This document shows positions 16,655 to 24,845 of a DNA stretch of 33,610 nt, piece after piece. The stretch is from positions 1-33,610 of the forward strand of contig CALVOO010000004.1 of the NCBI GenBank assembly GCA_944350305.1, given 5' to 3'. Positions within the stretch are counted from its first letter, which is position 1; each line of letters opens with the position of its first letter. The stretch is from an uncultured Bacilli bacterium (GTDB lineage: Bacteria; Bacillota_I; Bacilli_A; RF39; UBA660). The notes below the pieces were generated by a model. The model ran no database searches. It saw nothing but the letters and a program-made list of their open reading frames with translations, and was not told where the DNA came from. Both the position numbers and the translations under genes were made by a program.

Positions 16655-19396
16655 ATGAATAAAAAATGTAAATTTATAATAATAACTTTTTTTTCTATTT
16701 TATTTTATATAAGCACATTTTATAGTTTTAACCAATTTAAAACACAAAATCAAGAGTCAACTATAGTTAAAAATATTTACAATAAATCACGTAAAAATAC
16801 TTTGAATTTAATCAGTATAGTTACAAATATAGGAAGTTATAATGATATAGTTACAAATTTAAATAGTTTTTATAATACATTAGAAAACAGTAGTGATTAC
16901 ATATATAGTACAAATAAATTCATATGTGAAGGAAATAACTTAAATTGTACAGGAAGTAGTAAATTTAGTGATATCGGATTAATAAATGTGGATGAATATA
17001 ACAGAATAGGCGGTTTAAATTCATATTTAGGAAGTAATAGTTCATACTTTAGTATGACAGAAAGAAATAACTTAGTAAGTAATATAACAAGTAGTGGGAT
17101 AGAAGAAGTAGAGTATGATACAAGTAGTGGACTAAGAGGAGTAGTATATGTTCAAAGCGATGTAAAAGTAACAGGAAGTGGAACAGTAGATAACCCATAC
17201 ATATTTGAAGAGAAAAACAAAGAATATTTATATACACAAATATTAGCAGATAACCCAAATATAGAGACAAGAAGTGATTTTAGTACAATATTTGAAGAAA
17301 GTAATAATGGAAACACAATATATAAAGCAAGTGGACAAGATGGATTAAATACATATTATTTTGCAGGACAAGTAACAAATAACTATGTGTATTTTGCAGG
17401 ATATTACTGGAGAATAGTAAGAATAAACGAGGATAATAGTGTACGTCTAATATATGCAGGACTAAGCGCAGATGATACAGCGGCGTTTATAAGTACAAGT
17501 CAAGCGTATAACACAAGTAACAATAATAGTGCGTATGTAGGATACATGTATACATTAAATTCACAGCATGGAACAGGAACAAGCAGTGACATAAAAACAA
17601 CAATTGATAATTGGTATATAAATAACTTAAGTGGTTACTCAGGGTATATCAGTAAGACCGCGATATATTGTAATGATAGAACGACAGCAAGCGGATATAA
17701 ATGGAGTCCAACAGGAAATACAGTCTATTATGCCGGATATGAAAGAGTAAATACAAATAAAACACCAACATTTATATGTAGTAACAGTAGTGATAAGTTC
17801 ACGGCAAGTACAAGTACAGGAAATGGTGCATTAACATACCCAATAGGGCTAATCACAGCAGATGAGATAAGTTATGCAGGAGGATTATGGAACTACTGGG
17901 CAACAGATAGCTCAAGTTATTATATAGCCCAAAACGCAAGTAGTGGAGCGAGTTATTGGTGGACAATGAGTCCGTGCGACTGGATTAGCTACGTCAGCAA
18001 CGCTCTCGTGCTCATTGTGGGTGGCTCTTCTAGCGCTGGCTACTTGAACGGCGACGGTGTCTACAACGCGCGTGGCGTACGTCCTGTAATTTCACTTAAG
18101 GCATGCGTTCTTGCATCCAGTGGTGATGGAACAGCAAGCAACCCATATAAAGTGGAGTTAAGTGAAGGTTGTGCTAATGTAGAAAATGAAATATTAGAAG
18201 AAAATACGGTAAGAGTAAGTGCAACAACAAATGATGCAAGTATGGCAACAGTAAATGCACCAAGTTCAGTAATAATAAATAGTGGAAGCAGTCATACATT
18301 TACATTAACAGTGCAAGATGGTTACGAATATGAAAGTGTAACAGGATGTAATGGAACATATGATACAAGTACAAATCAATTAACAGTAAGTAATGTAACG
18401 AGTAGTACAACATGTCAAGTAAACTTTACAGCACCAAGGGAACCAGGACCATTGTATGCATGGATATTAGAAAACAACCCAAATGTAAGTACAAGAAGTA
18501 GCTTTAGTAGTGTATTCACAACAAGTAATAATGGAAACACAATATATAAAGCAAGTGGACAAGATGGAAAAGATACATATTACTTTGCAGGGACTGTTAC
18601 AAATAACTATGTAAGTTTTGCAGGATATTATTGGAGAATAGTAAGAATAAACGAGGATAATAGTGTGCGTTTGATATATGCAGGAACAAGTGCAGATGAT
18701 ACAGCAGCATTTATAAGTACACGCCAAGCATATAATTCAAGCTATGATAATAGTTCATATGTAGGATATATGTACACTAGAAGTCAGCAATATGGAACGG
18801 GAACAAATAGTAGTATAAAAACAGTGGTGGATAACTGGTACAGTAGCAACTTAAGTAGTTATTCAGGGTATATAAGTAAGACAGCAATATACTGTAATGA
18901 TAGAACGGTTGCAAGTGGAGATACATGGAGTGCAAGAGGAAGTACATTCTACTATGCTGCAAGTGATAGACTATACGTAAATGAAACACCAACGTTCACA
19001 TGTAGTAATGCAAATGATAGGTTTACAGCAAGTACAAGTACAGGAAACGGAAAACTAACATATCCAATAGGATTAATTACAATGGATGAGGTATACTACG
19101 CAGGAGGTTTACACGAAAGAAGCAACTCAAACTATTATATAGCCCAGAACGCATCAAGTGGAGTATCTTGGTGGATAATGAGTCCGCGCTACTGGGACAG
19201 CGGCCGCGCTTTCATGTTCTACGTGGACGGGTCTGATCTCATTGGCCGCTTGGCTAGCAGCCGCCTCAACGGCTCGTTCGGCGTGCGTCCCGTAATTTCT
19301 CTGAAATCTTGTGTTCTAGCCTCTGGAGGAAGTGGAACGGCAAGTGATCCATATACAGTAGATCTCCCAAGTTCCTGCGCAAATCTCGAAAATTAA
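16655..19396 (+). CDS. Repeated C-type-lectin-like surface protein with two variable regions
   Basis: A 913-residue protein with an N-terminal signal-anchor (about 5-25). Residues 100-185 form a degenerate lectin-like unit (IGLINVDEYNRIGGL ... GLRGVVYV ... GSGTVDNPY). Residues 191-507 form full unit 1. Residues 510-595 are an InlB/Ig-like linker. Residues 600-913 form full unit 2. The full units share NPN-x-x-TRS, GNTIYKASGQDG, YYWRIVRINEDNSVRLIYAG, IGLIT-DE--YAGGL, and end with WWxMSP...GVRPVISLK-CVLAS. The last block corresponds to the variable region of C-type-lectin-fold DGR target proteins. There is no C-terminal sorting signal. Ligand-binding display at the cell surface is inferred. Wobble use outside the variable blocks is A-rich and AT-rich. 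Confidence 0.85.
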   Translation: MNKKCKFIIITFFSILFYISTFYSFNQFKTQNQESTIVKNIYNKSRKNTLNLISIVTNIGSYNDIVTNLNSFYNTLENSSDYIYSTNKFICEGNNLNCTGSSKFSDIGLINVDEYNRIGGLNSYLGSNSSYFSMTERNNLVSNITSSGIEEVEYDTSSGLRGVVYVQSDVKVTGSGTVDNPYIFEEKNKEYLYTQILADNPNIETRSDFSTIFEESNNGNTIYKASGQDGLNTYYFAGQVTNNYVYFAGYYWRIVRINEDNSVRLIYAGLSADDTAAFISTSQAYNTSNNNSAYVGYMYTLNSQHGTGTSSDIKTTIDNWYINNLSGYSGYISKTAIYCNDRTTASGYKWSPTGNTVYYAGYERVNTNKTPTFICSNSSDKFTASTSTGNGALTYPIGLITADEISYAGGLWNYWATDSSSYYIAQNASSGASYWWTMSPCDWISYVSNALVLIVGGSSSAGYLNGDGVYNARGVRPVISLKACVLASSGDGTASNPYKVELSEGCANVENEILEENTVRVSATTNDASMATVNAPSSVIINSGSSHTFTLTVQDGYEYESVTGCNGTYDTSTNQLTVSNVTSSTTCQVNFTAPREPGPLYAWILENNPNVSTRSSFSSVFTTSNNGNTIYKASGQDGKDTYYFAGTVTNNYVSFAGYYWRIVRINEDNSVRLIYAGTSADDTAAFISTRQAYNSSYDNSSYVGYMYTRSQQYGTGTNSSIKTVVDNWYSSNLSSYSGYISKTAIYCNDRTVASGDTWSARGSTFYYAASDRLYVNETPTFTCSNANDRFTASTSTGNGKLTYPIGLITMDEVYYAGGLHERSNSNYYIAQNASSGVSWWIMSPRYWDSGRAFMFYVDGSDLIGRLASSRLNGSFGVRPVISLKSCVLASGGSGTASDPYTVDLPSSCANLEN
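17971..18085 (+). other. Variable region 1 (DGR-like)
   Basis: A GC-rich island covering residues from S439-P440 to G474-V-R-P477. Codons for the scaffold (Trp, Ser, Ala, Val, Gly, Leu, Gly-Val-Arg-Pro) are retained while intervening codons nearly all end in C or T. This is what adenine mutagenesis of AAC/AAT codons in a template would give. Flanking DNA on the 5' side returns abruptly to AT-rich codons. Confidence 0.7.
19181..19291 (+). other. Variable region 2 (DGR-like)
   Basis: The second GC-rich island, ending unit 2 of the same gene, from S843-P844 to the GVRP that precedes VISLK. It is two codons shorter than variable region 1 but aligns codon for codon after that gap. It is dominated by codons of the form NNC (CGC, TAC, GAC, TTC, CTC), otherwise uncommon in this AT-rich window. 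Confidence 0.7.
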
Positions 19397-24633: not shown

Positions 24634-24639
24634 TAATTT

Positions 24640-24845
24640 ACTTTTAAAGGTTTTAGTAGTAAATATACTTTTTAAAAAAGAGAATTAGTGGTTGGTGAAA
24701 ACTAATAAAAATATATTTATGAATTTCGGCCTAGTAAATTAAAAGACGTATTAAAGGCGTTAACTTAATGAGAAGCATAAATCTTTATGAAATAAGGTGG
24801 TACCGCGGTTAAATCCGTCCTTATGAATAAAGGTTATTTTTTTGG
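24640..24845 (+). promoter_or_regulatory. T-box riboswitch, Phe specific
   Basis: The leader carries the T-box sequence aaggtggtaccgcgg at 24794-24808, whose bulge pairs with the uncharged tRNA acceptor end. Upstream are the Stem I features gagaattagtggttggtg and gaaaactaat. In the specifier region the codon TTC (24725-24727, in gaatttcggc) matches Phe, as expected for pheS. A T-run after aataaaggtta marks the terminator. Low Phe-tRNA charging would favour readthrough into pheST. Confidence 0.92.

Follow-up and report, generated by a model that had tools for sequence, protein, structure and literature searches.

The locus described here raises the question of how one gene in an AT-rich bacterial chromosome came to carry two short GC-rich blocks. 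The window, that is, the whole stretch of 33,610 nucleotides analyzed, comes from an uncultured Bacilli bacterium and has a GC content of 0.286. The gene in question (positions 16655 to 19396, forward strand, from the list of open reading frames) is flanked by rbfA and lon and encodes a 913-aa protein with two tandem DUF6273/C-lectin-like domains. On the same strand, its translation begins with a hydrophobic segment, MNKKCKFIIITFFSILFYISTFYSF (16655 to 16729), likely a membrane anchor or signal, followed by domain 1 (aa 192 to 511; 17228 to 18187), an inter-domain linker delimited by the domain borders (18188 to 18451), and domain 2 (aa 600 to 913; 18452 to 19393). The two domains are 68% identical over their whole length, with 74% amino acid identity outside the blocks and 30% inside. 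The initial annotation had placed GC-rich islands at 17971 to 18085 and 19181 to 19291; both were confirmed, with slightly different limits, 17969 to 18093 and 19181 to 19299. Their GC content is 0.54 and 0.63, respectively (120-bp windows), compared with about 0.2 to 0.4 in the rest of the gene. The position of this gene beside lon is not simply conserved in the sister genomes. In one of these, an ORF upstream of lon (L242:3-1376, contig G002:C2) is repeat rich and has linker repeats in common with the target genes discussed below. Elsewhere in the window, a T-box leader (24634 to 24825) that scores barely above the Rfam gathering threshold lies upstream of an ORF at 24823.

Codon alignment of the two blocks reproduced the pattern reported initially, namely, 23 columns that change the amino acid, in 21 of which both codons are NNY, with a third-base G in both copies in the other two. 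Given that NNY codons make up 46% of the gene, such an excess is highly significant (binomial p ~1e-12). The 13 codons that are identical between the blocks include all nine scaffold codons listed previously. The gap, formerly given as a single one of two codons, indeed totals two codons, but is split into two single gaps in the best alignment. Lectin-like binding sites often evolve fast, and the difference in GC content between the blocks and the gene is also compatible with ordinary diversifying selection, or with horizontal gain of GC-rich lectin ends, in either case without a diversity-generating retroelement (DGR). The restriction of the changes to NNY codons argues against both, and so does the single DNA scaffold, third bases included, that is common to many blocks at ten places in the genome.

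The fold of the domain was addressed by structural modeling. With only 14 close copies as input, the prediction was unusable (pLDDT 38.7); an alignment of 55 homologous sequences gave a confident AlphaFold model of domain 2 (pLDDT 92.3, pTM 0.92), in which the block forms the last beta-sheet (residues 240 to 284). The C-terminal location of the block agrees with the initial annotation; the model resembles DUF6273 proteins, and C-type lectins just weakly. The only significant Foldseek match in the PDB is a Thomasclavelia IgA peptidase, with C-lectins at E values of 1 or worse, and a PDB sequence search with the domain found nothing of note; significant matches in a viral structure library include DUF6273 phage proteins. 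Domain 2 matches DUF6273 (PF19789) with 17.2 bits and an E value of 0.005, below the curated Pfam score of 23.5 bits. Weak matches to this family were obtained for 13 of 14 copies from the genus, and it is the Pfam family that most copies touch. The window domain is therefore DUF6273-like but not a Pfam member. DUF6273 is a known DGR target family: according to a study of Faecalibacterium prophages (PMC11792537), variable regions (VRs) there are located at the C-termini of DUF6273 domains, as in our case, but those DGRs belong to prophages, each element having one or two VRs. We infer that the window protein binds surface ligands.

The machinery that such VRs imply was detected in a congeneric sister species (genome G004, also an uncultured Bacilli bacterium), the one genome of the genus with a complete cassette. 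A 6-kb contig (CALVVN010000063.1) carries, first, the VR-containing end of a target gene and then, in sequence, three tandem template repeats (TRs), Avd (114 aa), a reverse transcriptase (RT; 373 aa), a MutS domain I (MutS_I) protein (135 aa; the assignment is backed by a family profile match), and ECF transporter ATPases. The RT contains IGNMTSQ and YMDD, corresponding to the DGR motifs (I/V/L)GxxxSQ and YxDD; motifs of this DGR type are missing from two unrelated RTs of the genus. A second, unrelated RT of the sister species (L038, contig G004:C28; 418 aa) matches retron-type defence profiles and lacks the DGR motif. The cassette RT matches phrog_1423 (E = 3e-76), and its best relative of solved structure is 8ub7 (E = 4e-26), which we take to be the DGR RT of BPP-1. 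The Avd protein is similar to phrog_3206, annotated "Avd protein of DGR" (E = 2e-10), and to bAvd (E = 1.5e-8; its 35.5 bits fall short of the curated cut-off, 40). The three TRs (L072:346-467, 829-956, and 1195-1313) lie outside the called genes and, when translated, read SPYNW(N)n...FNVGGSS.TGNL...VNNTNGVRPVIF; they are rich in AAC codons, and their unequal lengths stem chiefly from how many codons follow the tryptophan. The predicted fold of the TR RNA is no better than that of shuffled sequence (z = -0.03).

Comparison of VRs with these templates showed where the differences lie. Among three VRs of the sister species, 49 of 109 template adenines were changed compared to 2 of 242 other bases (Fisher 9e-27); in one of these VRs, 18 adenines were changed and none of the 81 other bases. 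For the two window VRs against the sister TRs, the counts were 45 of 72 adenines and 23 of 159 other bases (p = 5e-13), or 45 of 72 and 26 of 162 with an adenine-neutral alignment (p = 4e-12). At non-adenine positions, each window VR departs from the sister TRs 11 to 14 times, which exceeds the number in the VRs of the sister species; TR variants particular to the window species, or incipient drift of its VRs, would produce such an excess. Across the genus, GC-rich VRs of the length of the template denoted TRa have 3.09 distinct bases per column at template adenines and 1.47 elsewhere, and those of the TRb length have 2.59 and 1.32, respectively (p ~1e-12 for the enrichment of variability at template adenines). 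Non-coding TRs and coding VRs that differ from them at TR adenines are thus present within the sister genome and, for the window VRs, in comparison with the sister TRs. The coincidence of the changes with template adenines effectively refutes plain selection or horizontal gain, to which we assign a negligible probability. About ten paralogous ORFs of the window genome have 3' ends that look exchangeable, as would suit gene conversion or cassette shuffling among paralogous targets without mutagenic reverse transcription. Shuffling, however, only relocates sequence that already exists and could not restrict the differences to template adenines, where 49 of the 51 mismatches in the sister species lie, and non-coding TRs adjoin a DGR RT there. 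We accordingly reject gene conversion alone as the main cause, considering it very unlikely, although it may act alongside a DGR.

We conclude, with a probability of roughly 0.93, that the two blocks are VRs of a cell-encoded, multi-target DGR of an uncultured Bacilli lineage, produced by mutagenic retrohoming from tandem TRs, in support of the DGR interpretation in the initial annotation. The cassette, its TRs, and adenine-specific change are present in the sister species, and the window displays the same pattern. Under the proposed mechanism, the RT and Avd would copy the RNA of one of the several TRs, misreading adenines, and the cDNA would then be substituted for the homologous VR, located where a DUF6273/C-lectin-like domain ends; the cassette would act in trans, its targets being dispersed around the chromosome. 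Because the TRs are GC rich and the genes AT rich, each VR stands out as a GC-rich footprint, so that retrohoming tracts become directly visible. By the BPP-1 precedent, the conserved 3' ends of VR1 (GGCGTACGTCCTGTAATTTC; 18074 to 18093, forward strand) and VR2 (GGCGTGCGTCCCGTAATTTC; 19280 to 19299, forward strand) are candidates for the side where homing is initiated.

This 3' end pattern has 15 matches in the window genome, distributed over about ten ORFs, several of which are cut by contig ends; one open ORF contains three VRs and five contain two each. A search with the target domain identified 20 matching places, all genuine paralogues except for the two weakest. The third-position GC content (GC3) of the VRs is largely bimodal, with ten VRs at 0.62 to 0.80 and six at 0.12 to 0.29; the genome itself is near 0.2. 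The low-GC3 group fits the TRs poorly, and these AT-rich copies look frozen; one of them (G000:C31) is almost identical to a VR of another species (G003:C22). The VR scaffold bases are 85 to 99% identical to a TR of the sister species, reaching 80 of 81 non-adenine positions. Between the same two genomes, EcfA, one of the transporter ATPases, shares 71% of its bases and 61% of third bases at identical residues. Given a scaffold match of up to 80 of 81 against 71% for EcfA, the high-GC3 VRs are recent.

An RT and a matching TR, both sought as a check on the initial annotation, exist in the same-genus sister species but not in the window species' own assembly (803 kb in 45 contigs, 89.7% complete). 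There, no RT was detected with PF00078, the sister RT protein, or phrog_1423; no TR with the TR/VR 3' pattern (three mismatches allowed) or the TR 3' flank; and no Avd. Four other genomes of the genus (90 to 95% complete) likewise lack a complete cassette and show only remnants or scars. One (G001) has a MutS_I gene of reduced length close to the start of a contig, and two (G002 and G003) retain what appear to be the last MutS_I codons upstream of EcfA. In the fourth (L071:1200-1900, contig G005:C15), a target gene continues into a 29-residue remnant of the RT C-terminus, after which comes an open MutS_I gene, an arrangement that looks like a deletion that took Avd and most of the RT. The window species, too, may have recently lost its RT, Avd, and TRs, leaving orphan VRs that share the DGR origin but are no longer rewritten and drift toward AT-rich codons. 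Six C-to-T changes at third positions in VR1 and the existence of AT-rich VRs, including the one nearly identical in two species, fit such a loss, and Treponema denticola isolates that have leftover targets without the core DGR have been described (PMC4891356). Any loss must have been recent, however, because ten VRs retain a GC3 far above that of the genome. Furthermore, the assembly is broken by the target repeats, as indicated by six target-bearing contigs that end inside target genes, and a tenth of the genome is missing. EcfA is the neighbor of the cassette both in the sister species and in a genome further removed (L110). In the assembly of the window species, the contig covering this expected site breaks off 202 bp upstream of EcfA, and no scar is visible. 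We rate loss at slightly less than an even chance; the RT may instead reside in the unassembled tenth of the genome. The window species probably used, and may still use, machinery of the sister type. With an intact cassette, remnants, scars, and frozen VRs, the genus forms a natural series for studying the loss of a mutator.

The VRs also differ in length. VR1 (17969 to 18093, forward strand) aligns without gaps to the sister TRb, and VR2 (19181 to 19299, forward strand), which is two codons shorter, has the length of TRa. Because they differ by two codons and fit different TRs, VR1 and VR2 were probably written from different templates. VR cores in the genus measure 114, 117, 120, 126, or 129 bases, and the window genome has two scaffold haplotypes in its VRs, GTT GGC GGG TCG TCT and mostly GTG GGY GGG TCT TCT. 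The length class is independent of the similarity of the flanking domains (identity of same-length minus different-length pairs 0.001, permutation p = 0.41, 18 VRs). The simplest reading of these sequences is that several TRs of different length wrote into one VR family, which suggests that the choice of TR could alter the length of the loop. Recombination among paralogues, the process invoked above as gene conversion, could likewise unlink length from flank, and hence length switching is inferential. In the usual account, a DGR introduces point changes while the loop keeps a constant length. As a tentative proposal, which we consider somewhat improbable, the tandem TR array could be an interchangeable menu, such that retrohoming would change the ligand loop in length, by whole codons, as well as in sequence, in many VRs and in two or three per polypeptide. 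Antibody CDR3 loops, which vary in length, offer a parallel. If the proposal is correct, a DGR varies loop length too, and the accessible repertoire is larger.

Compared with known systems, the cassette resembles the BPP-1 DGR (bRT, Avd, TR, and the VR of mtd) in the RT, Avd, adenine-specific change from TR to VR, and a VR that ends a receptor-like domain, but differs in being chromosomal and in having three TRs that are unequal in length, numerous remote targets, and a MutS_I accessory gene. The BPP-1 system has been reconstituted in laboratory E. coli (PMC12875486). The TvpA-type DGR of T. denticola (PMC4891356) is also cell encoded, with remote or leftover targets and several TR types among strains; those types are spread over isolates, whereas here three tandem TRs adjoin one RT, with two or three VRs per target. 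Published cases include inactivated RTs next to TR/VR pairs that remain intact, as well as isolates that retain nothing but leftover targets (PMC3521204, PMC4891356). Two VRs in one polypeptide, deemed unusual in the initial annotation, are indeed uncommon but have precedents, several VRs per ORF being reported in PMC3521204, PMC6642488, and PMC10907252, and several TRs per DGR in PMC6642488. An ORF of Marichromatium purpuratum 984 has three VRs in tandem domain copies (PMC3521204), which differ from ours in being FGE-sulfatase domains, and its authors were unsure that the ORF is real. Thiohalocapsa PB-PSB1 has targets with several VRs and evidence for action in trans (PMC10907252), but it has nine DGR loci and defence-linked targets, whereas here a single cassette contains the TR array and the targets are surface proteins built of repeated domains. 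A tandem array of TRs of unequal length together with VRs of unequal length in one polypeptide was not found in the passages of the open literature that were consulted. What looks new, against these passages, is that TRs arranged in tandem and unequal in length supply VRs of five lengths, and that the length of a VR does not follow the ancestry of the domain around it.

Searches for carriers gave no sign of a phage or plasmid. The viral contigs searched contained no instance of the VR/TR pattern and two RT relatives at 29% identity; the phages searched lacked the target domain; and the RT relatives from phages and plasmids were all below 60% identity (about 28 to 34% among the matches listed). 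Relatives of the cassette RT are present in 140 of 291 genomes of the wider family. An on-site TR/VR pair was detected at 24 of 40 RT loci examined, in most cases with few if any mismatches outside adenines over the best 60 bases, and no second TR array was seen among these 40 loci. The RTs nearest to that of the sister species (54 to 69% identity; L110-L113 and L146-L148) have no TR in the scanned stretch; the corresponding templates may therefore be located at other genomic sites. Seven family genomes of 1.1 to 1.5 Mb (G081, G087, G101, G107, G063, G065, and G095; loci L198-L237) encode the same domain in at least 10 to 20 confirmed places, with up to 39 to 56 candidate places at first look, and one of them (G081) has a template-like scaffold common to several VRs. 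These large domain counts and the shared scaffold suggest that very large multi-target DGRs may exist in the family.
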